Assembly (NCBI GenBank): GCA_026419785.1
Contig: JAODTK010000799.1
Location: 124,001-188,000 of the forward strand
Length of the DNA stretch: 64,000 nucleotides
Reading direction: 5' to 3'
Source of the DNA: Sclerodactyla briareus
Lineage: Eukaryota; Echinodermata; Holothuroidea; Dendrochirotida; Sclerodactylidae
This document shows, in pieces, positions 6,273 to 35,366 of the stretch. The notes beneath the pieces are model-generated. The model worked only from the letters and a program-made list of their open reading frames with translations, was not told the DNA's origin and ran no database searches. Numbering within the stretch: the first letter of the stretch is position 1; each line of letters opens with the position of its first letter. The translations under genes were made by a program, and so were the position numbers.

Positions 6273-6340
6273 CCCTACCCCCCCCCCCCCATCCCCCACT
6301 TGACCCACTCCCTGCTATTTGACTCATATAGCCCCCTTCT

Positions 6341-8760: not shown

Positions 8761-9574
8761 GAGAGAAAGGACACCCCACCCAAAATGAAAGCTTAGAGCA
8801 AGTTGCATTGTATGATATTAATTTCACACCCATTTCGAAGTCAGAATGGGGGTTTGCTTGGGAGGTTCACGATGGGCTTTTATCCAATCAATTTCAAAAT
8901 ACTTCAATAAGGGGAATATCATAATAGCAGATCCTACCCTATTTTCACACTCGTATCAGGTGAAATTTGGTCCAAGGTTTCTGATTTCCTTCCTTACTAC
9001 AACCAAAAAAGAAACCATACAAAAATCCCCTCTCCCCCATTCTCCCCCCTCCCTCCACCCTCCTCTGAACGTTTGTCTGAGCGGAGTAGGAATGGTGTTG
9101 ACTAGCGGCTCCGATGTGTGAAAGGTCAACTGATAGGAAAAATAAGGAGTATATTTCAAGATAGGGAGGGGCTGGTTGGAGGCCACGGGAACTGCAGTGT
9201 AGTAGAAGTAACTTCACCTCAGTGAGTATCGCTCCAATCACGGATTTCATTTCTGCACCCACCACACGACCTCAATGAAGGCCAAGGGAGGATGGTGGTT
9301 TCGCCTGCTGGAGGGGGGGACAGGGGGCATGTGGGTGGGGAGGGGGGGAGGGTGGTTGTGGTACAGGTGTCCCTACAAACCCAGAACATGCACAAACTAA
9401 AGCATTTGAAGACAGAAGGTTTATATCACAAGGCCTCAAGGGTCTGTTACAAGAGCAATGCAGCGGCAGGAGAGGAGAAGGAAAAAGAGAGCGGGTGTTG
9501 TGAAAAAGTACACGGGATGGGATAGGACCACAACGACGTGGCCGGAAAATTTCTAACAGTTAGGATCGAGGTGG

Positions 9575-9965
9575 CCTTTGCTGAGGTTAGCTAGAGATCC
9601 CTAAGGATGAATGGAATGGATGGCTATCGCGTACCCAATGACAGAGAAGATATGGAGAATATTCATATTTAGTTGAAATTCTTGAAAGTTAAAATTTTTT
9701 TTTTTGGGATACACACTCCATGCACAATTTGTGCTATATTAAACTGAATAACTTCTGTGTTTCTGTTGAACACCGATTGACACATGACTTCCTGGGGTGA
9801 TGCCGGGTGGAAAATTTCAAAAGAGAATAAGATCCTATCACTTTCTCGGTGACTCCTTCCTAGGACAAGGCAAAAAACCCCCAGACCTTCCTCTTGGAAT
9901 TTACATATAGATTTCATGATGTAAGTGTGAGAGTATTCTAATATTGATTTCGAGGAGAATATATA
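9575..9965. repeat. Direct intronic repeat, copy 2
   Basis: Same orientation as copy 1 at 8,330-8,760, with several small gaps and a poly-T insertion near 9,693. No terminal inverted repeats were identified. Confidence 0.55.
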
Positions 9966-12900
9966 TTTCACTATGATCTTCCTGAAATTTTCCAGGCTTA
10001 GAAAACAAACTTCTCCAATGTCACAGCTGCAGGAGCTCCAAGTTGAATGTCAGTGTTTTGCTAGGTTTCCAATATGTGGGGGGCGGGGGAATTCCCCCCT
10101 CTAATTTTTCAAAGGGGATTTTGAAATCAAGGGGGGGAAGTTATGGTAAATAGATCAGTGAATTTTTTGGTACCATGAATACCGCCGAACATTGTCCCAT
10201 TTTTTAACTATAGGAAGGATGGTTTGATAACGGATTACAGCCCCCTGTTGTTTGCTCTCCGGCTCTCCTCTCTCCGAACGACGGCATTGCAAAAACTATT
10301 GCTACACAAAAGTTACACTGTATAGGCAGTGGGTGGGTACATTTGGGGGGGTAATGCCACCCCCATGCCATATCGTTCTGCTTCCAGGCCCATAGCACAT
10401 GAACTGTCGCGGGAAAAGGGAAATCCTTCAACGGCAACCTTCTGGCCATAGTGAATGTTATTTCAGGAAAAATTGTATTTTGTGTGAGAAATAAGAAAAA
10501 CAAAAATGATAATTTCAAGGCCCGTACTAATTCCACAAGGTAGCAGCCAGCAGCCTAAGTTAGAACTGCGTATGATTTTGTACAGGGGACCATACTAAGC
10601 ACAGTCAAAATGGGCACCTGAAGAAAACTTGCAAAAAATATGATTCCGTCTTTTGTGAAATGTGTTGATATCAACCCATCGACATGTCTGTTCATTATTG
10701 ATGATTTTAACTGTTTTCAGACGGCAAATTTTAAGGTTATTTTACAGTGAATTTGGTACTATTCCACATGGTTAACATAATACAGTGTGCATGCACCAGT
10801 TCTACAAAATCATCGATATCGATGTGTGGTAAAAATAGTGTTTTCTCCTCTTTCTCCATGTCCTGCAGTGTTACGATGTCTGGAACACAATGATATTAGT
10901 ACTATGCATACATTGTGCCTGGAGTACGGAGATCGTGACTGGTTAAAAAACAGTGCGAAATTTGCTATTCCTGTTGTGGAAACCAGTGCTGGACTTCCCG
11001 CACATAATCATTTTTGTGCGGGATTTTGAGTCTGTGTGCGCAGATCGCGCAGTCCCGTTAGCGTAAACGCTGGTTGAAGTTGCGTTTGACCGCTTTGCGT
11101 TTCAAGTTGATCCTCAAATCATGGTCAAAAATACATGTTATTTTGTATCAAAGGGAGGATGAACAACTGCATCTATTCTCGCGCAAGCACAATAACTCTC
11201 CAATGCCTAATTTTCAGAGCGTCGGATCTCAACGGAACTTGGTGCACGTATACAAACAACATCAGTTCCCAAGAATGATAAATGCCATTTTGAGGTTATC
11301 AGAGTTATAAAATCAAATGATTTAAGCAACTGTGATTTGCTCCTGACAAAAGGAAAAGCCACTTTAGGTCACCCGATTCCATTTGCAGTAAGATTAACGC
11401 ATACCAATTTGACGGAATCAAACAAACTTGATGAGATGCATGCAATTAGCAGCCGACTTCCCAGCACCATGGCCTGTGGAAGCATGCCGTTTGGTTTATA
11501 GTTATAGGGAGGTAAGCTTGGGAAAAAACATCTTGACATATTTGAAGTGCAAAGGGTATTCTTGATCCCCTAATAGTTATGGCAATGGATTTGTTTTGAG
11601 ACTGCTCCTAAGCTTTGACATGGTTGGAAATATATTGGCTGAAGCCTAGCTAGCACACACTGAGGCAGAAAACCTGAAACAGATTTATTTCACACTGGTT
11701 TTTCCTGTTCCGCTCAATTCCCCGGGCCCACAACCAGGAAACAAAACGAATGAGCCTGCAATAAACCAGATATGGCCTGCTCTCGAAACTACTCAAACTG
11801 GTATCTAATTTTCTACGGATGCCGCCATTTTGTAGCCATGTCTGTTATAGCTTAACACTATAAGCCGGAAATCCTTTAAATGGTTTTGCGAAACAGTCAA
11901 TGCCCATGTATCAGTCAAAATCAGCGAAAGGACTGTGATCATATATTCATAGCAATTTGTATTCACCAACAGCGATAATGTGAGCCAGCTGATATCTTCA
12001 TGATAAATGCCTGTATGACTATCTAACCGATTCAAGGTTTGGGTGAAAAAATGGCCATCTCATTCCAAATTATTAGGATGCGAGCAACCTACTGTGGGTG
12101 ACAGATAGTGCCAAACCTATCCAATTTCCAGCTGGGATACTGAAGGTGTCAAATATTGAAATGTGTAACATATTTGCCGAAAGACGGTGTGGTAATGTAC
12201 ACTACGGGAGGGGAGGGAGGGGTTTGGGGAGAAGGAGAGGGGTTTGCAGGGCGGGCTCTTCTTATTACTATCCAGAGATGCATTCCTCTGCTTGCTTGTT
12301 GGGTTTTTTTCTGCATGTTGAGTTTATAGTCAACATCATCTCTCTACAACTCATTGACTGTTCCATCCCCCATGTCCTGAGATCTGTTAACATATTTCTC
12401 GTGAGATTGCAAGGAGAGCATAGAGAATATAGCATCTAGCATATTCGTGTGGCCAGATTGAGCAGTCACTCCCTCAAGGCGGTGATTGATAGCTAGAGTA
12501 ACAGGCAATGGTAAGAGTCGTATGTGAGTGGTTAAGTGGTAGAGAATGGACTGTGCCCATGTTATCAGGTCATCACGTTTTTTTCTCTTTCCCAAGTCTG
12601 GGATCTGACCTTTGCTAGCCTCCATTGACCAATAATGGCTACGGAAAAGTCAATGGACGGATTTCATCGCTACGTGTTGAAAGGAAGAACAAACAGGTCC
12701 CTGTTATGTTGTTCTGTTATATCATATGAACTGGTGAGAGCACAAATTAGCACTTCAAAAAGAAACGAATGAACCTGGAAAAACAGAGAAAGGCCATGAA
12801 ACAAAGCGGCCAAGTAACATAACAATGGTTGGTTAGGAACAGCCCTTTGAATCTAATACAACACAATACCAGGTACGCCGCAGCATAACACTAGGATTCC

Positions 12901-14452
12901 ATGAGTGCCGATGGCCGGGAATGAAATTTGAAAATCCATACTACACTACGAGGAAAAACTATGTTTTAAAAGATGATGACTGTGAGCTGATGGGAAGTAG
13001 GAAATTGAGCTGCAGTGAACAGGTGTAATTAGACTTTATAAGAAGGAAATTGCGTTGTGAGCCATTCGCAGGATACAGAATCAATGCCACATTGGTATAG
13101 ACGACTATTTCGCCTATTCTGTGTTGATTTATTTGCCTCTGAGAACAACACTACTCTTACTTTTTTCCACTCTGCGCTCGTGTGAATATGACTTTCATGA
13201 GGTGATACGTCCCCCGCACTAAGGATATTCGCTGCAAGCCATCACTTTATACGTTCCTACATCAGCAGTCTTATCGACCAGATATAGATCCATATTTGAT
13301 GTTGACAGGATGATGGAACGATAATGATGATGAACGAAACTGAGGCTAAGATTCCACGAGCGCGGATGCGACGTGACACTATTAAGGCTGATTCACACAA
13401 AAAAGCACAAACGTATAGAGTGTCTGCATGATACACTGACAGTGGGTTTTGTACAGTTGAGGCGACAGGTTTTAATAGTCAGCACAAATCCTTGCATGTG
13501 ATATAATACAAGCACGGAGTGGCAAACTACCAAATGTAACAATGCGATTGTTGCTGCCGCATCGCTGGAAAGGAATTTCATAATAATGACCATTCCACAT
13601 CAGCATACCATCTATAACCTTCGAAAAATCACCTTCCTTTGAAAAACTGCTAACTTTGCATTCATTACACATCCGCACCTACATCCATGGAATCCAGCCC
13701 AAAAGTTTAATAATTGGCCATCGAGCATATAATCAACTCCTGAACAATAAATTAAGGAACGTAAGCACCGTATTGTTACACAAGCAGTTGAGGCATAAGC
13801 GTGACCTGTTTGATTGTTTCAAGCATGTGTTAGTAGCCCCAAGCGTGGATATATAGAGCAACCATAACTTGGATAGCGTTCGGTATAATTATAAGTCATG
13901 ATACCATTGATAACATATATCGGTGTTGAATATTTACAGAACAAAGATCAGGCACGTCTTCAATTTCTATGGAAGGATATACTAGCTGAACCAAGTGAAA
14001 TAACATGGATTTTATACAGAAAGAGATCCTAGATGGAATTAAGTTGGCTCTTTCAAGGGCTCTTTGGGACAAAGTGGCCTAAACTCTCCCGAGCATGCAA
14101 TGAAGATCTACATTACCTCAATGCAGGAATTAACACACCTGAGGAGTGTACGTAACCCCTATTTTTCCCATAGAAATGAACCTGATGAGAAGAAACCCCA
14201 CTCGTGAGTGGATACTCATTAAAGCCTAGCCAGCTTCCATGGATTCGGTTTGTTTTGGATTTCACAACTCCTTACAAATACAACAAAAAAAAAATACACC
14301 GCCCTCTCTTGGGTTGAGCACTGGATACCCAACTAGGACGCCCAACAGAGCACCGCATGCACCGCAGAAGGCTCTACTATCGGAAGACTCGTCTGATGTC
14401 AGATACCACTCGGAACAAGCAGGGTGATGAAAGAGGGGGGGGGGGAGATTAC

Positions 14453-14594
14453 TCCAGCTTTAGCCCCATGCCATCATCGATGACCTCTGCGACCTTTACC
14501 TCGTCCAGTAGCGGAATGGGAGGGTCTCCTTCTTGGTGACCTCCTCTGAGGGCTGTGGGATCTTCTGTAGGACCTGTGACTTGTTGGGAACCTC
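14453..14594 (-). CDS. Sbf: SBF exon: K.P.P....LPFPLLDE segment
   Basis: The acceptor is CGTCTTCCAG before 14,594; the donor is GTAATC at 14,452. The first frame is EVPNKSQVLQKIPQPSEEV followed by TKKETLPF. After one missing base at TTCC|G it continues PLLDEVKVAEVIDDGMGLKL. Human SBF2 reads MAFQKVPRPTEGS, ILPFPEINEARVQELIQEN. Without the shift the exon could also end at a GTAAAG 36 bp earlier, but the alignment supports the longer form. A G11-G12 tract lies immediately after the donor (C-run on the coding strand). Confidence 0.84.
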
Positions 14595-15330
14595 CTGGAA
14601 GACGAGCACGAAAGGGGGAACGGAATGAAGACATTCTAAGGAGGGTTCTAACTCAATAGCTGAGCTAGACCATATCACAGGGTTTGCAGATTCTGGGCAA
14701 TCAATTTCCAAACGTGTCATGACTTGTCCATGACCAAATATTGGATTTCCTGAGCTTCTCTATGACATCTCGCACAGAATTTTGAACTGAAAAACTGAAA
14801 GAGAGCCAAAGCAACAACATTAAACAGCTGTGGAAAGTAACAACATCACATCATGAAAAGTTCCATGACTTTTCCATGACTCGACAACTTTTCAATGTCC
14901 CAGACCTGGAATTTTATTGATGAAATTTGATAATTTCAAGGTTTCCATTGACCGTGGGAACCCTGACATCAACAAAATAAGCAGGGGGATAAGCTGAGAC
15001 CCTGCTTAGCCACAGATAGTCTTCTCCCCATTCCCGACACCTTATGCTTGGGTGCTAGGGATGCCCAACATGACAAGTCACACCGGCTAGTGCCTGGAAA
15101 GCAGTCTACCAGCTCCAGCATGAATAGACACTGGCAGAGTGTCGCCTAGTGCGCAGAGGGCAGCATGCACATGCTTGGAAATGTCTACTGCCCTCTATTT
15201 ATGGCAGTGTACAACCTGGCCTCTCAAGATGGGAAGGAGACGCTGGTGACAAACTTTATGACCTTCCCCTATCCCCACCCCCCCCCCCCCCCCCCATCAG
15301 TGGCCACTTTGTTATTAATTCTATACTCAC
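14595..15330. other. SBF intron with a poly-G tract on the coding strand
   Basis: A run of about 17 C at 15,280-15,297 (G on the coding strand) sits within 50 nt of the donor at 15,330. No other supported feature. Confidence 0.5.
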
Positions 15331-15429
15331 ATTGTAGAGGAGACTATCAGCTGCATCCTCTATTCGCCTCAAGGTTCTCTCTGCCACTGTGCCCTCCTCT
15401 TCAATAAGGTCCTGGATGTCAGCCACAAG
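15331..15429 (-). CDS. Sbf: SBF exon, 33 codons, end of dDENN
   Basis: A clean exon: a T-rich tract ending CCTGCAG before 15,429, then exactly 99 bp, then donor GTGAGT. It reads LVADIQDLIEEEGTVAERTL and RRIEDAADSLLYN without a break. Human SBF2 aligns as VVAFEVERIKVEENNPVKMI, KHVRELAEQLFKN. It is charged and helical, as in the last helices of dDENN. Phase 0 at both ends. This is one of the few SBF exons here with no frame change. Confidence 0.87.
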
Positions 15430-16497
15430 CTGCAGGTTAAAAAAATATGGTAGAAAGAGATCGAAACAAAATTGTACTGTTGACAATAGGGGCCAGAGTG
15501 AAACCTTGCATGCTAGATAGACAACAAGTCTCTACTGGGTCTGGTCAAGGAGCTGTAGTGCAAGTGATTATGCCTTCTTCATTTCTTTGACTACACCGAC
15601 TATGACCGCATCCCCTTCATCCAGTTTCAATCCGGGTATGCCCCCGAACACGGTGTGGCCCCGATTTACCTCACGCTTGCAGCACCGCCATCGGGAAGAT
15701 TGGTTGGCGCAGGATGGGTGTTCCAAGCAGGGCTATGTTTACAAGTCGGTACGTAAAGTGCACAGCATTGGGCGAGTGAGCTAGTGACATGAATGCAGTT
15801 TTATTATTTTGGTGCGATAAAGCTGCGATGTCCGCGTGGCTGGGCCTGGGATGTTCAGAAAATAATGTGCACACTGAGTGATTCAATGCACACAAGATTT
15901 TTGTGAATATGTGCCTCGATCGCAGCGATATATTTACAAGTCTCTTCAGGGCTCTGTGCCGTCCGTCACAGTGCCACGGGCGTGCCCAGATTTTTCCTTC
16001 TCTAAGACTTGGTTGTCCGCGGTTATTAACGGATGACTCGTTTTTTTCGGTTGACTGGGGTTAGTCGGTTATCTATGAATTACGTAACCGGTCTAACCGA
16101 AACCAAGTAAACGGATGGTCACGGGTTAACGCCTTACGGTGCAGCCATATGCCCTTGCTGGACCCCAACCTGAGTTTCTGGACATGACGGGTTCCGAAAC
16201 TTTAGGCCTCTCCGACAACTTTTGAAAAATTTGGGAAGAACACCATTGATGTGAATAATCCATGACTGCCAAAAAGACACAATTTGGTTGGTTGTAACAC
16301 AGAAAGTGAAGCATTCAGTTTGTCCTGCTGACTAATTCATCCTAATATTTTTTTTTTTTTCACCTCTCCAAAGACTTTACTACTTGTTTCTTGCAGATCA
16401 TTTGGTGATATCTCATCTTGATGCCGTTATGAGTATGTAACAAAGTGAGGTTGGTATGCTACTGCTGCTGTGCTCTCCTACTGATTAAACCCACCCT
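15430..16497. other. SBF intron, upstream part
   Basis: Intron between the exons at 15,331-15,429 and 17,950-18,080. Apart from the foldback elements at 16.5-17.7 kb nothing is recognised. A TCGGTT/AACCGA-rich stretch with short inverted words lies near 16,040-16,110. Confidence 0.4.
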
Positions 16498-16781
16498 TCG
16501 TTAAGGGGGGCTATTACGAGGGCCAACTTACCTTCTGGACTTACTACAAATGCATTTTCGGCCAAACGGCCGCTTCAACACACCCTATACCACTAAAAAA
16601 GAGTTTAACGGCACAGGGACCGTACGAAACGCAGAGCTGCCCCGTAAACGTAACTAGCTGGGAGCGGTACGGGCTGCACTATCATTCCAACTAGCACCCG
16701 AGGTCCCCGGCATAGTGGGGAGGACGGGCGGGTGTCCAGAAAGGTAAGTTGCCCCTCGTAAGTAGCCCCCCTTAACGATGG
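16498..16781. mobile_element. Foldback element 1
   Basis: Ends in inverted repeats of about 45 bp. The left end begins CGTTAAGGGGGGCTATTACG and the right end is its reverse complement, ending GTAGCCCCCCTTAACG. Both also share an ACTTACCTT(T)CTGGA segment. The element is about 284 bp and non-coding. Its interior is homologous, inverted, to the right part of the neighbouring element at 16,786-17,690. Confidence 0.7.
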
Positions 16782-16785
16782 GGGG

Positions 16786-17690
16786 TTAACTTACTTCAGG
16801 GCACTTACCTTCTTGGACCTAACTACAAACTGCAGCCTCCACCGCAAGGAGGTGGGAAGCCGGGGAGCGAATTAATCCTACTAGAATAAGACCACTCACC
16901 ATAAGAAAGATGTCTGAGTACCGCCTCCGCAGTCAAACCAGACTACAGACATCCGAGCGGGGCACCATCCAGTCACAGGCAGGATGTCCCTTAGCCAGCC
17001 ACAGCCCAACACAACACGCTCTACGAGCGAGGCCGCTGGTGGGGAAGGGGGAGAAGCACAAAGCCGACGCTTACCTAGAGGCCAGTGACCCCCCCCGGCG
17101 CGAGGGGCTACCAGACGCGGAACCCTAACCGCGACCCCCGCGCGGGAGGATAGCGGTGGCCATGCGGGATTCCCTCCGCAGGGGGTCCCGGAGGTATGAA
17201 GCGATAAAGGAATTCTGAGATTTCCATCTCGCAGCCTGTAGAATCTCCTCCAACGGCCACCTTTATAGAGCGTGAGGGAGGAGGCAACCCCCCGCACATC
17301 GAGACACACACACAAGACCGCACTGGCCCGCTAACGAAAGTTACTATCCCAAGAATGGGCAGGAATGAGTGAATTAACTACAGAAAATACACCACAACCC
17401 CAAAGAGGAATTATATCACCTGATAATGGTTGGAAAGGTGGCAGAAAGTGGCGTGAGAAGCGTCCAAATGATAAACTGCGATGAAAGAAACAGGTATCCG
17501 GTGTGCTGCAACACACACCGAAAAGAATGATAGTTGCAGCCCCGTACCGCTCCCAGCTAGTTACGGCTGCGTTCGGTACGGCGCTGTGCTTAACTCTTTT
17601 TAGTGGTATAGGTGTGTGAAGCGGCCGTTGGCCCAAAAAATGCACTTTTGTAGTAAGTCCAGAAGTAATTGCCCTGAAGGAAGTCTTGGA
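16786..17690. mobile_element. Foldback element 2, GC-rich interior
   Basis: The outer arms share TTCAGGGCACTTACCTTCTT on the left with the reverse complement of the right end near 17,650-17,690. A further arm (16,550-16,690 in element 1 against 17,530-17,640 here) shares CGGCCGCTTCA, CTATACCACTAAAAA and TAACTAGCTGGGAGCGGTAC. The interior (17,030-17,300) is markedly GC-rich compared with its surroundings but shows no convincing protein. It is probably non-autonomous. Confidence 0.6.
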
Positions 17691-17949
17691 CTTCTTATGA
17701 TTATTCATAGAGTCATCTATTTCTGTGTACTGATAACCAACAAGGGCCATCTTAAAGTGCAATTACTGTGATATATTGCCAAATTCTTGCAACTTAACTG
17801 AACCCCCCTCCCCCCTCCTGTTATACCACTGGATTGTCAACTTCATCGATGACCAATGTACATTTATTTAGATGTTTTCCCTTTGAAATTCAGATTGATT
17901 CACATCCTCCCTCCCGGCCCCAAATTCTCAGCAAGGAGGATATACATAC

Positions 17950-18080
17950 CTTGTCAAAAATATCACAAACCCTGTAGGGCGGACCTCTCTCACTGACAAA
18001 TGTGTTGAAGGGACATTCCGTCAATGAGCGTGTCAGGAAATCCTCAGTTCACTACTCCCGGCAAATTATAAAAAGAGACC
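17950..18080 (-). CDS. Sbf: SBF exon: [10 protein letters not shown] hallmark segment (dDENN)
   Basis: The acceptor is TTTTTTTCCGACAG before 18,080; the donor is GTATGT at 17,949. The 3' two thirds read uninterrupted: DFLTRSLTECPF, then [17 protein letters not shown]. Human SBF2 reads [32 protein letters not shown]. The 5' third is shifted but gives G.FL....G.VN.E, fitting human FLGQRGLVEN. FVSERG.PYR is one of the most conserved SBF stretches, so this is a diagnostic exon. Confidence 0.9.
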
Positions 18081-18627
18081 CTGTCGGAAAAAAAGAGTAA
18101 CAGAGGGGGGGATTCAGCAGTGTACAATATTTTTAGGACAATGGTTTTGAGCACTGACAACATTATGAATGTGTCAACGTGATAAGAGCCAAGACCTAGA
18201 TGAAGATTATTTCCTCATGAATTCGAACAGACATTGATCACAAGACTTTGATTGAATTTATACGCAATTTGTTTCAGTCTAAATGGACTGAATAATAATA
18301 AATTACAAAAGGATGCATGAGTGCAATAGTACATTTGAAAAATTCTGTTCAACTGAGCATAGCCAAGCGAGAGATGGTTTTGACGCCACTGGTTCAACAA
18401 CAAAAAAAATATTTGTACTGTTGCACAAAAGAAAAGAAAAAAATCATTTGATATAACACCAACACAGAATTTGGCGAATTCATAATACTTGTTATTTGTT
18501 GTAAGTCAGTAGTTGGACTTCTGTGAAAACTTGTGTGAAAATTTATGTTGCTATGCGTATTGTGAGTACACAATATTTGCTGTAGATCATATTTCATCAT
18601 TCATCCAGTTTTATCTGGGTTGATATG

Positions 18628-20265
18628 CGGGGTTAGTATGAGAGAGGATTCCCCTACGGCCTTGACAGGGTATTCCCTGCACAATATTAACGGAGGACAG
18701 AATACCCTTTCTTGGCTTGTTAAATGTTATAACAGAAGAGCGGTGTATTCTGATGAAGGTTAGACAGGACCTATGGTAGTCCAGGTGCTGCGCCTGTAAT
18801 CGCAGGATGATTGCAAGGGTCGGTATGAGAGGGGATTCCCCACTTCTTTGACAGGGTATTCCCCCACTATACTGACAGAGGGCAGTATACCCTTTCTTAC
18901 CTTGTTAAATGTTATTATAGGAGAGGGGTGTATTCTGATGAAGGTTAGACAGGACCTATAGCAGTCTAGGAGCTGCGCCTGTAATCTCAGGATGATTGCA
19001 AGGGTCGGTATGAGAGGGGATTCCCCACTTCTTTGACAGGGTATTCCCCCACTATACTGACAGAGGGCAGTATACCCTTTCTTACCTTGTTAAATGTTAT
19101 TATAGGAGAGGGGTGTATTCTGATGAAGGTTAGACAGGACCTATAGCAGTCCACGAGTTGCGCCTGTAATCTCAGGATGATTGCAAGTGTCAGAATGTGA
19201 GGGGGTTCCCCCCCACTTCTTTGACACGGTATTCCCCCACTGTACTGACAGAGGGCAGTATACCCTTTCTTACCTTGTTAAATGTTATTACAGGAGAGGG
19301 GTGTATTCTGATGAAGGTTAGACAGGACCTATAGCAGTCTAGGAGTTGCACTTGTAGGCTCAGGATGATTATAAAGGTGGGCGCCATGAGAGAGATTTCC
19401 CCACTGCTTTGACGGGCAGGTGTGAATCCAAGGGGAGGGGGGAGGGGCTTTTCTGGCTTCAGCCTCCCTTTTTTCAACAGATATGCCAATTGTTTACGTG
19501 TCAGCCCCCCTCATTGTAAATCAGTCCGGTTAATATCACTCGACTTGATCATACCTTATCCTTTTGACCTGTTTGGGCTATTCGTTTCGGGATTCTTTGC
19601 ACAATACGATGGTTGGTAGACCTGTGTAGATGTCACATCTCCATGGACTTTTTCTGGGTCCTAATGTACACAATTATATTAATCGTTTTGATAATTTTTA
19701 GAATCTTGTCAACCGAAATCACAATGAAATGTTCCCAATTAGCCTCAGATTGCACTGGGAGCATCTAGAATCCTACAGCTAAGGCGGGCCCTGGACCTAC
19801 GCCTAAGGGATATACTGCGCGCCTCGAATGTCGCACAGTGATGTGTGCCCAGTCGGTCTGCACTAGATTCACAGCACAATTGTCAGCCCTCCCCCCCCCC
19901 CTTTTGGGGAAACCTGTATCTGATTGCAGGGTATTCCCCCACTATACTGACAGAGGGCAGTATACCCTGGCTCACCTTGTTAAATGTTATTATAGGAGAG
20001 GGGTGTATTCTGATGAAGGTTAGACACGACCTATAGCAGTCTAGGAGTTGCGCCTGTAACCTCAGGATGATTGCAAGGGATCAATATGAGAGGGGATTTC
20101 CAACTGTATTGACAGGCGTATTCCCCCACTATACTGACAGAGGCAGTATATCATCTCTTTCTTACCTTGTTAAATGTTATTACAGGAGAGGGGTGTATCC
20201 TGATGAAGGTTAGACAGGACCTATAGCAGTCTAGGAGTTGCGCCTGTAACCTCAGGATGATTGCA
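18628..20265 (-). repeat. Six-copy tandem array of an SBF exon 3' end plus its 5' splice site
   Basis: Exon-end copies lie at 18,716-18,793 (A), 18,901-18,978 (B), 19,086-19,163 (C), 19,274-19,351 (D), 19,976-20,053 (E) and 20,166-20,243 (F). Each is exactly 78 bp and reads as 26 open codons on the minus strand with the core CYRSCLTFIRIHPSPVITF (CYRS is YHRS in A). F is the end of the full exon. The other copies start about 16 bp further upstream, inside coding sequence. The donor is GTAAG in B, C, D and F and GTGAG in E, but CC replaces GT in A. The sequence before each copy ends TTACAG, a possible acceptor, except in D (TACAA). Spacings are 185, 185, 188, 702 and 190 bp. Confidence 0.9.
19420..19925. 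other. Insertion of about 0.5 kb inside the exon array
   Basis: Between copies D and E the 187-bp periodicity is broken. Array sequence stops near GACGGGCAGG (19,420) and resumes at TTGCAGGGTATTCCCC (about 19,926). The intervening 0.5 kb has no array homology, no obvious terminal repeats and no coding frame that I can support. A C12 run lies at 19,889-19,901. Short CAGG words at both joints could be a target duplication or chance. Confidence 0.5.
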
Positions 20266-20347
20266 CGGATTTGTTTGTCGACCACCTCTGGCCTAGAGGC
20301 GCCTGGGACTGACGGGAAAGGCCATGTCGGCTACCTTCAGATCAGGG
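20166..20347 (-). CDS. Sbf: SBF exon: DLKVADMAFP...CYRSCLTFIRIHP (start of dDENN)
   Basis: The acceptor region is a long pyrimidine tract ending ACTGGAG before 20,347; the donor is GTAAGA at 20,165. The first frame is SPDLKVADMAFPVSPRRL. After one frame change it continues VVDKQIRAIILRLQAQLLD, then CYRSCLTFIRIHPSPVITF and NK. Human SBF2 aligns as [35 protein letters not shown] and CLQLIRIHAEPVIHFHK. It is the only complete copy in the array at 18,628-20,265. The shift lies outside the duplicated part. Confidence 0.88.
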
Positions 20348-21928
20348 CTCCAGTACATGTAACAGAACAGCACAAGAGTGAAAGGAAGAAATGAGTGGTA
20401 TCATCAACACAGTCTGACATCTGAGAAAGGAGATGACAGCAATGGAATGTGTCCCAGGTGCTACCACTCTCACAAGACAATTGTCCGAAATACATGAATT
20501 GTGAAATGTTGTACAGCTTGACAGGTTTTATGACAGGCTATCAGTGTCAGACATGGTTATTGACATGGGGAGCCATGTAATCATCCCCATCCTGCTCCAG
20601 AACTGGCATTTTACGTCCCTCCAAGAGGTAGATCAGTGAACCCCAGGCTCAGACCACGTTCTCAACCTGGAGGAGCAGAATTTCATGGCCAACATGATTG
20701 CTCACAGCCAACCAACATAACCTTCAAGACCCATGCACAAATCCACTTGCATCATAGTGGAACTATGAAGTGAAATTCAAGACCTTCCCCTATTAAACTA
20801 CAAGTACAACCACCATTCAGCTGAGGTCTACTAGATTGTCTTAGACATTACCTTACGAGGAGAAGATTGAGTTGTTCAGTCTAGCTTGGATGGAGCTGAG
20901 ACGAGAGTTATTAATGAATAGAATAGCCGTCATGAAGATGTTGTTCTGTCCAAGAGTGTGAATGCATTAGAGAACAGTCTTGAATATTTTGTAAATATTG
21001 GGGCAAAGTTCGCCAGGGTCTAATGAGGTTGCTGCCTTCCTTACCCTCTTCCACTGAACTTGACCTAGGAATTTTTTTTGGCTTACAAAACATCATTGAT
21101 ACCACTATCATTCTTCCAAGATATGAAAAACTGGTCAAAAAGGTCTCGGTGGCTAACAATAGCGTAGTACCAAAGAGTGATGGGACAGCTTTGGTCTATA
21201 CCTTGTTGGGACCTTGTCGTCAAACTATATTGAGTGGGTGTGTCAGAAGGAGTGTTCTGGGATGTTCAACTATCGGAGCACTTCTGATGACACTGGGTCA
21301 CTCCTATCACCACCTCATCAATTCAGACACCGCATTTTTGAGGAGACTCCCTTGCCACATTCATCTGGTCTAGTTTGGTGGTTCTCAGCCAAAAATCATG
21401 GCACAATATCATCCCAGAAATCATGACACAATTTTATCCAGTGTCCCAACCTCGGCCACGATTCATTTGATGTGTCTGGATCACCTTCACATCTTCATAT
21501 TACTGAAATACAGGTAGTTAGTGTAGTACTGGGGCTCCAGGCTGTAAAACATTGATTGCCAGATCGGAGACCATTGGAAAAAACGGGTAAAAGTGGATTC
21601 CTTGTGAGGTGACTTGTGAAGAGTAGCGAGCGCTGTATGTGGCAGCTTTATTGGGAGTCCCCTCGGTGACGTACGGAAATGGTGGCGTTCGTGAGAGAAA
21701 AAGCAACAGTTGTGTGCGTGCGCTAGAGCACTGGTGTGACAAGTCACTGTATGAATCCCGGGGTGTTTATCTGTGAGGGCCCTTCATGCATGTCTTCGAC
21801 AGGGTAAAGTGCCAATATCAGACCATATATTATTATCTCTCCCAATTTAACCCCCCCCCCCCCGTAACCAACCCCCCCCCCCCTTCAATCCGCCCTCCCA
21901 ATTGATGCCCCCCCCAGTGCACTCTTAC
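20348..21928. other. SBF intron with repeat remnants
   Basis: Contains a dispersed repeat copy at 21,540-21,740. Around 20,850-20,930 the + strand gives EEKIELFSLAWMELRRE, faintly like the C-terminal tail of non-LTR reverse transcriptases, which is too little to call. C-runs of 10-14 lie at 21,849-21,862 and 21,872-21,883. Confidence 0.4.
21540..21740 (+). repeat. Dispersed repeat family F, copy 1
   Basis: The segment around GTGACTTGTGAAGAGTAGCG and GCTGTATGTGGCAGC is matched in inverted orientation at 27,225-27,370. Identity appears to be roughly 75-80 percent over about 130 bp. No terminal structure or coding frame was recognised. Confidence 0.55.
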
Positions 21929-22044
21929 CATAGTCGCTCAGCCTGGACCTCTTTCGAGCATTGATGTCGGCGGGAGCCGGGAGGTGAACACACTCTGGGA
22001 CAGTTACCCTGCCACACCATCAGATCAGCCACGATGACGTCAAC
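21929..22044 (-). CDS. Sbf: SBF exon: DVIVADL...VPECVHLP, end of cDENN
   Basis: The acceptor is CCCCCCTCAG before 22,044; the donor is GTAAGA at 21,928. The first frame is VDVIVADL. After the frame change it reads VTVPECVHLPAPADINARKR, then SRLSDYG. Human SBF1 reads [28 protein letters not shown]. The DVI[IV]ADLDGG strand is a cDENN hallmark. The shift is ambiguous: one extra base, or two missing ones that would restore DLDG. Confidence 0.87.
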
Positions 22045-23103
22045 CTGAGGGGGGTTTTCAGAAACGAGGGAATGACTCGATTTTCATTGAGTGTCGGCCA
22101 GGCCTAGGACATCCTCATGTGGGGTGATTGGTGCTGACCAGAATACTGCCTTTGAACAGTCTAACATTCAAACTATCAGCTCCCTGTAATTCGGAGATCC
22201 TTTTTTCCTAAGAATATGACTTCAGGATTTGAGTTCACTACACTCTTACAAACATACCTAAAAATACTATAAAATAAACAAACACTTATGATATAAAATT
22301 CAAAAATATAAAAGTTTAGGACGATAGAAATAGAGACAAACGAAGAACTAATAGGTACGTAAAGAAAGTTGTTGGCCATTTCGTTGTCTAAGAACTGAGA
22401 ATGAGCCTTGGGTAAGAGAGAAATACTCGAGTTTGGCATCTCATACACGATTTGGTCTGGGCCACTCACCTGTTTGACTGCTGTACTCAACTACTGCTTT
22501 GTGATAGAACTACCCACTTATGACCACACTGTTAGACGAGCAAGTCACCTCAACTGTCAAGGCTACCCCCTAAGCTCCGTGTAGACGCAGCAATAAGTAT
22601 TCCAAATAGAAATTTATGGGACTTATCCTTTCATATTTTATGACATTTTTTTCCGATCCCATCTATATTAATTTTTGGGCTACCGAAGGCTTTCTCACGT
22701 ACAAAGTTTCCACTTGACGTTGTATGTAAGGTGATCCAAAGTGCCCCTTACATGTGTCACAAGCAGACTACAAACACACTACCATTGTTGCCTTGTTGGT
22801 GCATCTCAGACTGGCCCGGAATAAAGGTTGTGGGGTTTCTCTCAGTGTGATGAATAGGAAGTACCACATTTATGTGACTCTTGCACTTTGATAGGCCAGA
22901 TTGCATACTGGCCTTGTTGTGACCCTAATGTCCGTATTCAAAATGTTAGTCATAAAACCAGCCAAGCTAGCTATAACAGCATACCACCTGCATGACTATT
23001 CAGTTCATTTCCTCATAGCAACTGGCCAGTCAAGAAAGCAGCCCCTACCACAGAGGATATGAATCAATGCTGCATTATTATATAATACTCCCAACTCAGA
23101 GAC
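22045..23103. other. SBF intron without recognised features
   Basis: AT-rich intronic sequence. No repeat family or coding match was seen. Confidence 0.45.
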
Positions 23104-23201
23104 CTTTCGTTCCTGAGAGAGGAGTGCATTCCCATGATGAAAGGTGTTGGAGTGTTTAACACTTCAGTGAGGTATGAGGAAGTACTGGGATATATACATA
23201 G
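23104..23201 (-). CDS. Sbf: SBF exon: cDENN core TPTPFI.G
   Basis: The acceptor is CTTTTTCAG before 23,201. It reads YVYIPVLPHTS, then after a shift LTEVLNTPTPFIMGMHSSLR. Human SBF2 reads [29 protein letters not shown]. The TP[TS]P[FY][IL][IM]G strand defines cDENN cores across DENN proteins. The 3' boundary is uncertain: the first GT after the match (GTCTCT at 23,103) is a weak donor. The next exon in the protein is at 21,929-22,044. Confidence 0.85.
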
Positions 23202-23313
23202 CTGAAAAAGAAAAAGAGAGAGGATAATAGGCAACGATTTTGTATACACCCACATCGGCAGGGTAGCTAGGGCAACCAATGTGCCATGCCGCCCAGCACA
23301 GAAATATTTTGGC

Positions 23314-23372
23314 AGGGTGGGGGGGGGGGGGGGAGGCGGGCGGGGGGGGAGGCAGGGGGGGGGGGGGAGGGC
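23314..23372 (+). other. G-rich homopolymer block, potential G-quadruplex
   Basis: About 59 bases, nearly all G, in several runs of 6-16 separated by A, C or T. It is C-rich on the SBF coding strand and lies about 110 bp upstream of the acceptor at 23,202. Many G4 registers are possible. Its true length is hard to trust because homopolymers are error-prone. Confidence 0.6.
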
Positions 23373-24384
23373 AGAGATGACTACGTATAACGCACACATA
23401 GTTTTCACGATGTGAAAACCCCGACATTACATAACAATTACATAGTGATATGGTCTCTCGGGGCCTGGGTATGGCTCACTGTGAATACCAAGCAAACACT
23501 GCCAATAACGTTAATCTTTATCTTAAGCGGTGAAGTTTTCGACAGGACACTGGAATACCATCAGGAAGATCAGAGTTGCTAAAAGTAATAGTTGGAAGGG
23601 GGGGGAGGGTAGTTTTTTGTCAGGAGAAATCAAATCTCTTGGATAATCAGTGTATGGCGCTCACTATCACTCCTAAATCCGAGCTAGAGAGACACTTAGT
23701 CTTGAAAGGGTGGAACTAGCAACAATCGGAAACACGTCCTAGCAATAATGCAGGAACATTCAGGGATTAAACTGGAAAAACAAACAGTACTGGAGGATGT
23801 AAAGGATGAATACCAAAGAAATTCCACTGCCATGACTAGAGAGGGCATTTATCAATAAAGGTTGCAGTTATGCATTATCTAGGAACCACATTGTCATCTA
23901 GTTTGTTTCTACCAATAAAAGTCTAAAATCAAAGGGAATAAAATGGGTTTACCATTACTGGAAATCAGGGGATGCCATCTCTGTACCTCCCTTTAAATTT
24001 CACCAAGGAAATATAGTTTACACATGTGTATGGTCGATACACTACCAGGGATAATTTATTTAGATGTACTACATCCACTCCTCTCGTAGAGTCAGAAAGG
24101 CCAGAGGAAGGTTCAAGGTCCATCTCAATTAGTGATAGATATTATACATTAACTGCAAGCAATGACATAGGCGTGTGTTGTGAGGGGAATCTTTCACCTA
24201 GTCCGGGTGGCAACCCTATCGTCCTTCTTACTTTGCCAGTTGAGTAAGTGAGTAAGTTGGGGTAAGTGGCGGAGGAAATAGATGGGGTGTAGACGAGTAC
24301 CCAGATATGAGACTCAGCTCCCTGGGGAAAGGCTGACGGGGAAGGATGTGCGAAGACAAGGATGCATTAAAATCGAAAATTTAC

Positions 24385-24520
24385 CCTGTAGCTGAGGAGG
24401 GAAGAGCAGACAGCAGGGCACTGCAGGCGTTTACTGTGAGCCTGTGGCTAAATCGTCGATAAAAAAGACCTTGTGTCCTTAGAGCAGCCACAGAAAGAGG
24501 GAAACAAAATTATGAATACA
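24385..24520 (-). CDS. Sbf: SBF exon: cDENN, T.HKV(L)F and NACSALLSALFP
   Basis: The acceptor is TTCTTCCCTGCAG before 24,520; the donor is GTAAAT at 24,384. In three frames it yields CIHNFVSLF, then VAAL, HKVFF, and FSHRLTVNACSALLSAL followed by FPP. Human SBF1 aligns as [21 protein letters not shown] and [21 protein letters not shown]. At least three shifts are needed, so this is one of the most broken exons. Splice sites and gene order leave little doubt about its identity. Confidence 0.78.
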
Positions 24521-24949
24521 CTGCAGGGAAGAAAGAAAGAGACCCAAATGACACTTCCTACTTACCTACTGTATACATCAATTATAGCACATCAACCTAT
24601 AACCAGACATGTTTGCAGCGGGTGAAACCGCGAAGGTAGATCCCGCAGAAAGAAAAGGTTTTTGGGGAACCTCGTTCAGGAGAGAGCAATTAATTTATAT
24701 CGTTTACCCACAGGATGTGAAAGTGCCTTCCCTGTTGTTTAGGACAAGTGAAGTCATACATCTCCAAGGTTTTGTTTGAATACGGTAAAGTGAGAAAAAT
24801 CGCATGGATTACGGAAATTTTAACTCCTGTGACCTTGACAGACATCATATGGTCTAGGGAATAACGCACCGCCACATCCACGAGTGTGTTAAATCAACAA
24901 AGTTGGAAAAATCTGGAACAGGAAAAAAACACAAATTAGAATTTTGACC

Positions 24950-25230
24950 TGAATCAATTCCATGTGATTGGGACCAATTTTGTCCCACCACCAAGTTTTG
25001 TGTAAATCCTAGAGAAAATTAGAGGGCAGCGGGACAGCAGTGATGCCCACTTTCAAACTCATCCAAAAATTCCACTCGGGTGGACATGTGTGTACCAAGG
25101 TTCCGATCAATCGGATAAGCGTTAAAGAGTATTGCGCCAATGCTAGAGCGTTCCGGCTGCGGGCGGCGACGGGGCTACACCCCCAAACCATAATATCCCT
25201 GAACATTTCAGTGTTGCGGGGGATAAAATT
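24950..25230 (+). repeat. Dispersed repeat family D, copy 1
   Basis: Matches 29,935-30,230 in the same orientation. Shared blocks include GATGCCCACTTTCAAACTCAT (CGAACTCAT in copy 2), ACATGTGTACCAAG-like, and GCGTTAAAGAGT then ATTGCG. The end is near CCCCCAAACCATAATA and GCGGGG. It is non-coding and about 280-300 bp, a typical size for a SINE or MITE-like element. No terminal inverted repeats were recognised. Confidence 0.7.
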
Positions 25231-26029
25231 ACACATTAGATGTTTTGTTGTGTACTTGTGAATAGGACGATGCCAATCAAAGGATTTGAATCAAAGGTTC
25301 TCAGTGTGAATACATCTCTCTTGACAGTTCGAACTACCACCCAAAAATAAGGTAAACCCAATGGATTGTGTAAAATCTAAGGTACTGAGGAGGTAGTAGT
25401 AATATATGGGCTACAATGAAACAAGGCTTTTCCATGAAGTGGGGTTCATTAACTCAATTACAACTGCCATTGAGCACACAATTTTATTAGTTCAAGTACT
25501 GTCGATCAGTCATTTATAGGCAATTGTCAAAAGAATGCACGTCATTACAGTGGTTGCCGCTAAGCTTTTCCAATATGGGAGGGAATTCCCTTCTGGTGAT
25601 TCATTTTAAGAGGGGTCGCATCCACCCAAAAATGTTTGTGAGGGAATGTCCCTCGTGACATCATTTTTGGGAAGGGATTCAGCATCAGCAGGGGGAAATT
25701 TTTCTTTCCCTCCTCTTAGCACCAATACTGCTTCATTATACTTGAGCTATTAAATTGTTTTCTCCGTTGCTCAGCACCTCTGTGTGTGTTTCTATTCGAG
25801 AGCCGCAGAATGCATCATATTTTCCAGCTTTGGTGAGCATAAATGGAACATTTCCCCACATTATGGAACGACCCCAAGTACGCCTGACCTACTTTTTGAA
25901 ATCCTTAGGAGTGATGAGGGTGCATCCAGTCTAGACACTCGTCTTCACTTAACACTGGCCACAGGTCGGTAATGGATGATCATGGCTCTACTCTGGGTAA
26001 TCACTATAAAGGAGGGCAAAGGGTACTTG

Positions 26030-26200
26030 TCCCCAGACACAGTAGTCACCAGAACAAGTTTGGGATATGTGAATTCATATGCATACTTACCCCACATTGA
26101 CCCATATCGCCAAAAACAACCCCCCAAATGCCATGTGGAGCTTCTGGCAATTACACAAAATGCGGGTTGGCCACCCCACGCCCTTCTCCCAGTAGAAGTC
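26030..26200. mobile_element. MITE family B, one-armed copy
   Basis: Shares CTTCTGGCAATTACACAAAA, TGCGGGT(T)GGCCACCCC and the upstream CCAGAACAAGTTTGGG with the left arm of the element at 35,955-36,300. The inverted right arm is not seen here, so it is a truncated copy. Confidence 0.6.
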
Positions 26201-26602
26201 ATCGTACTGCAGGGACTGCAAATTGCTTCTCTACTTTCCAGTGGCCTATTTCCTGCTATTACTTGCTCTTTTTCCTCTTCTTCTCTCATCTGCCAAGTGG
26301 TCATTATCAGAAGAGTCTGCTGTCGGGAAACTGAACCCCCCCCCCCAACAGATTAGGCATCCCAATCGCCAGCAAACACCCCCCATTAAAAGAGAAAAGT
26401 ACTGCCTAGGCAGCTTTTATCAATTATTCATCAGAAAATCATCAGTATGCCCAATTAGAGGTAATGTATGTGTGGTAATGTAAACACCAGTACAGCAGTT
26501 TACAGTCCCAATCTTCCCCTCATCGAGACCAATTCTAAAGTGCCCTGGAAATACAATATCATTATCATTTATGACTGGAGTCAAGAGAGAAAGTCAACTC
26601 AC

Positions 26603-26687
26603 CTATCATTGTACTAGGAAGGTGCAGTACTCTTGTGACTGCGTAGATTACCAGTCAGCGGGGGCTGCAGGCCTGCCTATCGTCTCA
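26603..26687 (-). CDS. Sbf: SBF exon: GDRQALQPPL segment of cDENN
   Basis: The acceptor is TTTTTTCTATAG before 26,687; the donor is GTGAGT at 26,602. It reads DDRQA in one frame and LQPPLTGNL then SHKSTA in the next. Human SBF1 reads [32 protein letters not shown]. The last 20 bp are frame-shifted and give L.VQMI. It is short (85 bp) and damaged; the call rests on GDRQ.LQ.PL, both splice sites and its place between the neighbouring exons. Confidence 0.74.
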
Positions 26688-27224
26688 CTATAGAAAAAAT
26701 AGTACCTGGCAAAACAAGAATGACAAAACATGTTGGACCTTCCAATGTCGGCTATTCCTCACATCAAGTTACTCCAAGATACAAGCCACTTCCAGAGCTC
26801 TGATCACTCTAACAATTTCACAAAAAAAAGATATGCAATCCATCGAAAAAAAGTTACACATCAGTTTTTTCAGAAGTGGATGCTTTTCTATGGCACTATT
26901 GAGGCATATCCTTCTCTATTCTCACCCGCAGAGGGACACAACAGCTGCCCCCAATCCGTCATGCACCTAGTGAGTCAGTGTATTTTCTTGCATTCATTCA
27001 CCCTGAATTGCCAAATGTAGCCCCCTGTATATTATATAATTTCGAAAAAATGTAATAGCAATCGTTTTAACTGTGGAGTGGCCATGATAGAGGGGGGGGG
27101 GACCCCACCAACTGCAAATTCGAAAATTAGTAAATCTGTGCACCATATAGGCCCTCTCCAAGACATACTCGAGGCCAGTTGGGACCAGAATCCAGATCAT
27201 CAATGATTTGTACACCCGCACCAG

Positions 27225-27370
27225 ACAGCAGGCATTTCTGACTCGTTCAATCCCGACACATCATTCGACTTCCAATAGGGCAGCCACATACAGCATCGCT
27301 ACCCTTCACAAGTGCACCTCAAAAGGTACCAACTTTTACATTGGGTTGCACAGGAGACAATCCAGGGGGA
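27225..27370 (-). repeat. Dispersed repeat family F, copy 2
   Basis: Reverse-complement match of 21,540-21,740, with GCTGTATGTGGCTGCCCTAT and CACTTGTGAAGGGTAGCGA as the clearest blocks. Confidence 0.55.
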
Positions 27371-28317
27371 CAAGCCTGTCAAACAGGACTGCAGAGAAAT
27401 CCTGGCTTTCAATGGGATTCAAGCTCGCAATCACTGGTTTGCAGGATCGAGTTCTAAGGAAGACCGAATCCTCTCCATATCTTATTCCTTTTTGCCTGGA
27501 CAGCATATTGTTATCAGTCACCTATGGAGTAGCGCCGGAGGTACGGATGTCGGCTCTAAAGTGATAGATGGCATGCTATGATACATTAATTTGGAACAGC
27601 AATTGTTTCAGCTGTGGATCAGTGAATTGTTTTTCTCTATTGCAATTGCTTAGGTAGTACACTAGACACAGCTGCTTCCACCAGTCATTGTTTTGGTATG
27701 ATCCCCACTCATTCGGTCTGTGAGAAACCTTTTCCATTTTCTGTTACCCAGGTGCATCTACTGCATCATTTAATGGGTTAAAAAATCTATTGCCAGCCAG
27801 ACAGTGTTCCCCCATGATATCATCCGTTTTTCAATTCACAAAGTAAATTGAAAGTAAGTAACTCAAAAACACGTTATGGTAGAGGGGTGGATTTGCCTTG
27901 CACTCTCTTCACCTGTGCTACTTCCAAAGGGAATCTGATATGACATTGGTCTTTAAAGCTGTATACTGATGATTTAAATTCCATTTAGTCATTATTTCAT
28001 CTGGTGATGATGTGTGAAACAAAAGGATCAGGTCAAAATGGATCATTTTGGTGGAATGAGTTCCCTGTGGCGGAACATATACCGTTGTTGTTTGCGGTCA
28101 GCTGGCTTTTTTGGAAAAATCACAGACGATACTCATCTTCTCCAAAACTAGAGAGGATTTGAGTGCTGTAAACTTTGGCTTCTTCTAGATGAGGGATCCG
28201 ACGATGGACGGAGTGCCTTTTTCAAACAATTGTTGCTTTTTAAAGGCTGAAGTGAACAACATTTCAATGAGCTGCCTAGCACTGTGATTTCCTAGAAGTA
28301 GGGCTGTAATAACTCAC

Positions 28318-28440
28318 CTGAGGTCCCCCGGAGGGGGGCACGTGCACATGGCCCAGTATGTGCCTACCAAAATCGCTATAGCTCTGTCATGGTTGATCTA
28401 TGTAGAGGTGTAGATAAACCAAGGCAGAGTTCGGAAGAGG
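28318..28440 (-). CDS. Sbf: SBF exon: ILGHV.VPP.GGPQ, with a shifted 5' part
   Basis: The donor is GTGAGT at 28,317. The last 16 codons, HILGHVHVPPSGGPQ with one preceding residue, are open and fit human SBF1 LIGNLLTCTVPLAGGSQ. Upstream, with three or more frame changes, I read FRT.CLGL.YT, IDQP and TELIAILVG, matching human [27 protein letters not shown]. An AG at 28,364-28,365 could alternatively be the acceptor, giving an exon of only 46 bp. I prefer the longer version, but its 5' end is approximate. Confidence 0.68.
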
Positions 28441-28792
28441 AAGAACAAAAAATGATTGTAATGAAGTTTAAAATAATAAATAAATAATAACAGGTAATAA
28501 TAATGTGCAGAAGCTGATGGGAGATTTTTTTTTTTCCAGTTCTTTATTCTTGATAAAGACTTATTGTGTCAGCTGTTAATAAGTTGGTAAGTCCGATGTG
28601 GAATTTCGTTCTCGAAAGGAAGTCGACGATGAGGAATGCTCAATTGGAGAGCTACAAGTCAAAACTGTCTGAGAGATCTGCCGTAAAGGGTAGATCCAAA
28701 GCATCGGGCTTTTCTCCATGGCTAAAGCAAATGGGAGGTTTTCAAAACTGGCCCACACCTATTCTGCTTGAACTTCGATGTTCCCAATTGAA

Positions 28793-29080
28793 GGCGCGGT
28801 CACACTGTAAACAAAACAATGAGACTTGATTCTCAACACACAAACTCAAAGCGCGGTCAAACATCAAGTAATGTTCAATAAAATACAGAAAAATCAAGAG
28901 CGGGATGAAGCTGAAAGGATAAAACTGTTACGTAATCAGACATGATTTAACAATGCGACTTACAGCCTAATTCAGCACTCCTGCAATCTGCCACTGCTAT
29001 TGTGGCTTTAAGCCTTTAATCGCTTACAGTGTGACTGCACCAATCTATTCATATCACTATCGTTACGGTGTGACCGGGCT
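28793..29080. mobile_element. MITE family C
   Basis: The left end GGCGCGGTCACACTGTAA is inverted at 29,024-29,041 (TTACAGTGTGACTGCACC) and again at 29,063-29,080 (TTACGGTGTGACCGGGCT). It is 250-290 bp and non-coding. A further GCGCGGTCAAAC word lies inside. Superfamily undetermined. Confidence 0.6.
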
Positions 29081-30699
29081 AATATAGGCATAAACTCAAG
29101 CTTTGTGTTGAAGCTTTGTGCAGATTTGAATTAGTTTTATTTTTGTGAGGGGAGGCCAAAGGATCATAAACAGGAAAAGCCTCCCTGGAGATATTGCTTG
29201 CTCTAGGAGTGGTTATTGACTTCAAATTCACAATCGTTTGTTTTCAGCTGTAGCTCTCCTTGACAGAGCTAATTCCCCTCCTACATGTATCATATTATCT
29301 ATAGTCCATTGGTGTTGTCTTCTACCGCATATCTCTCATATTACTGCTAACACTTACACTGACTCACACTGATACTTGATACAATTTGGGTCCTCATGCT
29401 GCCAAACAAAATGGCACCACACATCCTTACAATCCTTCCCCTCTTCCACGATCCACCCTACCTTTTCTAGAGTGTAGGCAATGAACTTCGAAGCTGACAG
29501 ACATGAGACAGTCAGGAATGAGATATTACCCTAACCATACACCTCAGCAGCTGCTTTCTTTTAACCTGGTTACCATACACAATAAAGGAAAATACATTTA
29601 TTGTGCATAAATCAAATGTGGGGGTGAGTGATGTATACTGCAACTTAAATTTGTGTGAGAAAGCTTAGTTTGAATACTCTAAGTGTACACTGTTACCTTC
29701 ATGTACTAGACCTGTGTAGGCTGGTACCTGCCCAGTGTATTATATCCCCGCTTTTGCAGCAATCATTGGGAAGAGTATCTAACACCCCATAAAGACCCCA
29801 TTTTTGGTCAGAGACTAAGTTCATGTTGTTTAGGACTTAATAACCGTCTACATCCACCAGTTTTGGTTCAAATCTGAAGTTATAAAATTGGGCGAAAAAA
29901 CGAAATTTGACCTCTGGTGACCTTGAAATCACCGTCATGTTTTTCGGAACCACTTTAAGTCCACACCCAACAACTTGGGATAAACCCAGATTTTTGTGTG
30001 AAAACCTTCAAAATGAGGGCAGCAGACATGCAATGATGCCCACTTTCGAACTCATCGAGATATGACAGACATGTGTACCAAGTTTCAAATTCAATCAATA
30101 AAGCGTTAAAGAGTTATTGCGCTAACGGCTAGAGTTTCCGGCAGCAAGAGAGGACGGCGTCAGAGACGACATCTTACACACCCCCAAAACCATAATACCC
30201 CCACACTTCCGTATCGCGGGGATATAATAATGGGCATGATAACATTACCCTTGGGCCCTAAGATTCATACTGGCCTATCATGTAAGATGTGTGTCATTAC
30301 CATTGGCTCAATGGTAGTATGCCAAATGTCTAGATGAGTCCGTCCGTTTAGTCTGTGCCTCCCTCCCCCCCCCTTCTTCCTGAATTTTGTCCACGTTTTA
30401 ACAACAACCAGAGGCAGCACCCAGAAAGAAATATGGTGGTGGTATTTCAAACTGTCTCAATCGAGATTTATCCATTATCCCTCTATAGGACCATTCCGCA
30501 ACCTACCCCTGGTGACATCCCCATCTCCCCATCCCCCCCCCCTTCCACCCCCTCCCCCCTTCCCACCCCTCTCCTCTCCCTCTCCCTTCCTCAACAGCAC
30601 TAGCTGGGTGAAGCAGCTTTATCGTAGTGTTGTGTTACTCATACCCTCATGTTTCAAGTATCTAGCCTGGATAAGGACCAGACATTTGGGGCTCCTGAC
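29081..30699. other. SBF intron; an expected exon not found here
   Basis: The protein order predicts an exon for the segment ending ...PKSLVLVSRL...EIF between 28.4 and 30.7 kb. I could not find it on the minus strand. Repeat family D, copy 2 lies at 29,935-30,230. C-rich tracts lie at about 30,359-30,372 and 30,528-30,570. Confidence 0.45.
29935..30230 (+). repeat. Dispersed repeat family D, copy 2
   Basis: Same orientation as the copy at 24,950-25,230. The shared central block is TGATGCCCACTTTC then GCGTTAAAGAGTTATTGCGC, and the shared end is CCCCCAAAACCATAATACCC. This copy looks the fuller of the two. Confidence 0.7.
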
Positions 30700-35168: not shown

Positions 35169-35366
35169 AAAATTGCAACGTATATAATTGTTTTTTTACA
35201 TTGAACTCTGTATTTATTAGCGATCTGGCGTTTTGCAGCCGTGATGTCACAATGCTGAATCAGCTGAAATACAGTCTGGAGTTCTAGTTGTCATGATGCC
35301 ATAATATTTTACATGACCATTGGCCTTTGATAGAAGCACTGTTCCACTATCAGTCCCTGAACATAC

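Follow-up and report, generated by a model that had tools for sequence, protein, structure and literature searches.

An array of six SBF exon ends, probably functionless, in a decayed sea-cucumber gene

Among the literature compared here, the closest mechanism in print is the gain of an intron in a potato gene through a tandem duplication that crossed the border of intron and exon, where inherited splice signals and a cryptic coding site could define the new intron (PMC4974935). A second described system is that of tandemly duplicated exons that are spliced in a mutually exclusive fashion; they lie head to tail in one gene as similar coding copies of equal length and phase (PMC9741552). In searches that did not use the gene name, none of the titles and abstract openings considered described an exon array in SBF/MTMR13. 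We analyzed 64,000 nucleotides of DNA from the sea cucumber Sclerodactyla briareus (contig JAODTK010000799.1, positions 124,001 to 188,000; hereafter the window), which carry part of an SBF (MTMR13-like) gene in which the end of one exon occurs six times in a row. An initial annotation had proposed that these copies could be spliced into a working protein and vary the start of its dDENN domain. The array is real; it is probably functionless, and its host looks like a dead SBF gene.

The six copies of the exon end lie on the minus strand at positions 18716-20243 and are transcribed in the order F, E, D, C, B, A. All are exactly 78 bp long, in frame and open, and the coordinates and reading frames bear out the counts first given for them. 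A GT follows AAG in five of the six (GTAAGA in F, D, C, and B; GTGAGC in E), while TTACAG stands before every copy but D, where the corresponding word is CTACAA. Four of the five extra copies thus have TTACAG, and both tallies agree with the initial annotation. Copies F, E, C, and B keep both splice words, A is without the GT, and D is without the AG. From A towards F, the copy-to-copy steps measure 185, 185, 188, 702, and 190 bp. Tandem Repeats Finder reports a period of 185 bp with 3.9 copies at 18636-19370 (score 1159) and a period of 190 bp with 1.8 copies at 19923-20265 (score 583), and at these scores the array is not a product of chance. Self-comparison of the 64-kb window finds the 185-bp unit at this locus only.

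Alignment of the copies together with their flanks reveals that the real repeat unit is ~185 bp long and joins the final ~99 bp of the exon to the initial ~85 bp of the intron. Its start lies within the original exon, ~22 bp ahead of the 78-bp stretch, and the unit there takes in most of TGCAATCATCCTGAGGTTACAG, part of RAIILRLQ. As the unit spans the exon-intron boundary, each copy inherited the exon’s donor. The frame of copy F continues upstream as RPEVVDKQIRAIILRLQ-AQLLDCYRSCLTF, as it does in sea-cucumber MTMR13, so that TTACAG encodes Leu-Gln within the original exon and is no duplicated acceptor. The sequence ahead of the copies has a pyrimidine fraction of 0.56-0.62, compared to a mean of 0.50 for the comparison set of 1952 minus-strand YAG sites, 26% of which reach 0.62 or more. 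The 702-bp step between D and E is a single unit interrupted by an insert of ~505 bp (19418-19922). Since the insert splits one unit, it should be later than the array, and by eye it resembles a small DNA transposon. The greatest similarity is between units C and B, which differ at 3 of 185 bases; all three differences are exonic, and the intron parts are identical. Copy A carries five amino-acid changes of its own.

Protein comparisons identify the repeated piece. A 50-residue query from the exon retrieved seven proteins among nine candidates, all of them echinoderm MTMR13-like, and the two sea cucumbers represented, Apostichopus japonicus and Holothuria leucospilota, match it with 91% identity over 88-92% of its length. 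With sea-cucumber MTMR13/SBF as the best protein matches, the earlier assignment of the repeat to an SBF exon end is confirmed. A query joining several copies retrieved 65 proteins among 2367 candidates. No second copy occurs in the 72 retrieved proteins, at a second-match threshold of 35 and in searches that covered candidates of 1045-3325 and 67-212 residues clustered at 90%; only P0001, P0002, and P0004 have second matches, at 35-39 versus 110-133 for the first, which we read as background and not as copies. The 26-residue peptide had no match in the PDB.

Four long minus-strand frames with their stops masked, three covering 8001-22999 and one covering 23000-37999, had no Pfam match. Short exons were probably lost in such frames, and the exon pieces of the host were therefore placed with tblastn and a custom frameshift-aware aligner. 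Among the matches listed, 17 minus-strand pieces follow one another in gene order, starting at 35436 and ending at 211, with introns kept. These pieces were chosen by judgement from many weak local matches, the out-of-order remainder being treated as chance. Of the 2078 residues of the protein, the window reaches no further than residue 861 (~41%).

The host gene is extensively damaged. Its 813 alignment columns contain 34 frameshifts and four in-frame stops, and 14 of the 17 exon pieces are frameshifted, including the parent exon of the array, the one that holds copy F, in which two frameshift steps fall ahead of the array, near 20302-20318. No AG stands immediately before 20358, where the alignment of this exon begins, a point that may differ from the exon start. 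The exon at 6523-6350 is free of frameshifts, yet is without a donor and reads into a stop, and the piece whose alignment ends at 5245 is followed by gcgatc and not by GT, with the same reservation that alignment end and exon boundary may differ. Residues that six full-length echinoderm proteins hold invariant are changed in the host at 64 of 391 positions (16%); this set omits codons at frameshifts, gaps, and stops, and P0004, a protein of 1772 aa whose Pfam list lacks the N-terminal domains, was excluded from the invariant columns, leaving the six. When each intact protein is scored against the columns invariant in the other five, the changes number 3/420, 7/424, 11/428, 13/430, 14/431, and 35/452 (0.7-7.7%). 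The host’s rate exceeds that of the two sea cucumbers pooled (p = 3e-16) and that of the worst control (p = 1.5e-4).

The host gene contains a second array of exon ends at 5890-6470, where three copies of the NSARRLEV...FESK exon end, each with the start of the intron, are spaced ~185-190 bp apart. The idea of one repeat common to both arrays was dropped, as blastn between them gave matches of 9-15 bases only. An unconstrained gene that gathers local duplications would fit both arrays.

These features allow the locus to be set beside known classes. Homology, exon order, kept introns, disabling changes, and relaxed constraint relative to intact relatives are all found within the window; judged on these features, the host appears to be a decayed, intron-bearing gene copy and fits an unprocessed SBF/MTMR13 pseudogene. 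Like unprocessed (duplicated) pseudogenes in general, it keeps its introns and exon order and bears frameshifts, stops, and a lost donor; unlike them, it carries two local exon-end arrays. The first array is a head-to-tail series of similar ~185-bp units, as in a minisatellite or short satellite, with the inner units C and B most alike and the edge copy A most divergent, but it has only six units and is made from the end of an exon. With the potato gene it shares a tandem duplication that crosses an exon boundary. There, an intron was gained; here it is the exon’s other boundary, the 5′ splice site, that has been multiplied several times, in a broken gene and in a case known from sequence alone (PMC4974935). 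The differences from tandem alternative exons are larger: the unit starts within an exon, no acceptor is duplicated, two copies each are without one splice site, and the gene looks dead. Copies do not each have an acceptor and a donor of their own as whole exons do, and the host frame is not open. On both grounds, the missing acceptor duplication and the broken frame of the host, the array falls outside the definition of tandem alternative exons (PMC9741552).

Taken together, these results make it highly probable that the array arose by neutral local tandem duplication in a decayed, intron-bearing sea-cucumber SBF/MTMR13-like pseudogene, and that its copies make no functional protein today, a lack of function that we infer. 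The segment across the boundary, with ~99 exonic and ~85 intronic bp, would first have been copied in head-to-tail orientation; the copy number would then have risen to six through unequal exchange or slippage during replication. The coding word TTACAG would lend the copies the look of an acceptor by coincidence. Copy A would have lost its donor and copy D its AG, with the insert afterwards splitting the E-D unit. Open reading frames say little about selection, since random placement of the observed substitution numbers leaves all five derived copies open with P = 0.62; selection is not needed, and the suggestion in the initial annotation that duplication might account for the open frames is upheld. 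Its proposal that the copies vary the dDENN start of a working protein finds no support, given the stops and frameshifts of the host, the latter present in the parent exon too. The splicing-in of copies is likewise not borne out, given the middling pyrimidine content, the missing splice site in each of D and A, and the lost donor of a later exon.

Several observations pull the other way. Three of the 17 exon pieces (residues 434-466, 518-574, and 631-653) have neither frameshift nor stop, and the frameshift count comes from a custom aligner that is uncalibrated on intact-gene or shuffled DNA. Copies F-B vary at 7 of 78 exon-end columns versus 18 of 84 intron columns (p = 0.03), and for all six copies the figures are 13/78 and 30/84 (p = 0.0075); in the aligned copies, the exon parts contain no indels and the intron parts several. 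The ratio of non-silent to silent changes among F-B is 3:4, where 74% non-silent would be expected (P = 0.08). Echinoderm-invariant residues, of 26, are changed at one position in F, two in E, two in B, three in C, four in D, and five in A, and the single change in F compares with 16% gene-wide (P = 0.06).

The initial annotation had suggested comparing divergence in the exonic and intronic parts of the unit, and the outcome is divided: the exon end is less variable among F-B, but the difference fades to 12/99 versus 18/84 (p = 0.11) when the ~22 upstream exon bases are added, and every difference between C and B is exonic. For all six copies, the whole exon part still varies less (19/99 versus 30/84, p = 0.019), whereas the subsets FECB, FDCB, FCB, and EDCB give p = 0.06-1.0, none significant; copy E enters the intron comparison only for the intact portion of its unit. 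Copy A has a non-silent to silent ratio of 5:2, which does not differ significantly from that of F-B (p = 0.59, with lineages assigned by hand). Strong selection on the exon copies was considered as the principal explanation and dropped, as significance shifts with the columns and copies counted. The exon still comes out mildly more conserved than the intron, an excess not fully explained; either a functional past or a G-rich stretch of intron prone to mutation would account for it.

In one rival account, the array was born in a functional gene, some copies were spliced and constrained, and the gene died afterwards, leaving the array to decay. Copies F and B differ by 13% in their intron parts and by 4% in their exon parts, and this account would also suit the low non-silent ratio among F-B. 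The effect is weak and inconsistent, however, with the exon end and intron indistinguishable for FCB (p = 0.41) and EDCB (p = 0.44), and the most-changed, gapped intron columns lie near the G-rich unit end, which may just mutate more. We regard this history as unlikely. An extended form of it is quite unlikely in our judgement: in a working SBF gene, the coding TTACAG would have been recruited as a 3′ splice site and the duplicated donors as 5′ sites, giving several optional 26-codon exons, some of them selected before the gene died, so that the relic would record both the gain of introns and the multiplication of exons through duplication of a boundary.

Sequencing or assembly error could in principle mimic gene death, with an intact gene made to look broken, repeated, or both by an unpolished or misassembled contig. 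By eye, some frameshifts resemble length changes in short runs, and no other gene was identified in the window as a quality control, the seven open reading frames tested having no Pfam match at E 0.1; a small probability of error is therefore kept. Random error at one frameshift per 72 bp, however, predicts 8.3 indels across the exon copies (6 x 99 bp) and 5.2 in the comparison of unit C with unit B, and none is seen in either case (P = 0.0003 and P = 0.006). On these counts assembly error was set aside as very unlikely, and it would also have to contend with substitutions at invariant residues that exceed those in all six controls and with the altered, donor-less end of the exon at 6350. The least credible account, that of functional alternative exons spliced singly or together in a working gene to lengthen the segment before dDENN in 26-residue steps, can point to in-frame 78-bp copies with TTACAG and with donors near the usual donor consensus, to lower variation in the exon than in the intron part, and to the five private amino-acid changes of the donor-less copy A, but it faces frameshifts in most host exon pieces and in the parent exon itself, acceptor words that belong to the coding sequence and follow stretches of middling pyrimidine content, C/B differences that are all exonic, and the absence of a second copy from the retrieved proteins, which 90% clustering or the search length limits could conceal.

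The coordinates of the array and its host are collected in Table 1. Elsewhere in the window, self-comparison shows diverged local repeats at 45304-46120 with spacings of ~175, 350, and 625 bp, and two inverted pairs: 582-1028 with 40588-41059 (~69% identity over 501 columns), perhaps a dispersed element, and 16532-16687 with 17525-17665 (~80% identity over 161 columns). The minus strand of 48505-49477 resembles a broken reverse transcriptase by eye, and two open reading frames tested there had no Pfam match. A tRNA scan and an Rfam scan at the gathering threshold found none in the window.

Table 1. Features of the SBF (MTMR13-like) gene and its exon-end arrays, in window coordinates.
Feature	Position	Strand	Remarks
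Decayed SBF (MTMR13-like) gene, extent in window	211..35436	-	17 exon pieces, residues 29-861 of P0002 (Holothuria protein)
Rest of original exon, as far as alignment reaches	20244..20358	-	two frameshift steps near 20302-20318
Copy F, original exon end	20166..20243	-	AQLLDCYRSCLTFIRIHPSPVITFNK, then donor GTAAGA; TTACAG before; upstream continuous with RPEVVDKQIRAIILRLQ
Copy E	19976..20053	-	TTACAG before, GTGAGC after
Insert of ~505 bp splitting the E-D unit	19418..19922	-	G/C-rich inverted ends, by eye
Copy D	19274..19351	-	CTACAA before (acceptor-like AG lost), donor GTAAGA
Copy C	19086..19163	-	TTACAG before, donor GTAAGA
Copy B	18901..18978	-	TTACAG before, donor GTAAGA
Copy A	18716..18793	-	TTACAG before, CCAAGA after (donor lost)
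Next SBF exon downstream of array	17953..18089	-	two frameshifts and one stop in alignment
Second array, copy 1, SBF exon (LVQSMNPR...FESK)	6350..6523	-	no frameshift, no donor, reads into stop
Second array, copy 2	6143..6271	-	SKLLNSRR and GTGAGA donor kept
Stretch with second array, copy 3	5890..6095	-	degenerate

Had its copies ever been spliced, the array would be an uncommon example of introns gained through duplication, with several copies involved. As the relic of a dead gene it is otherwise of little import. It does illustrate how tandem duplications that cross an exon-intron boundary pass donors and look-alike acceptors to all of their copies, so that neutral repeats can mimic arrays of alternative exons, and it counsels scans for such arrays to look for frameshifts in the host gene first.
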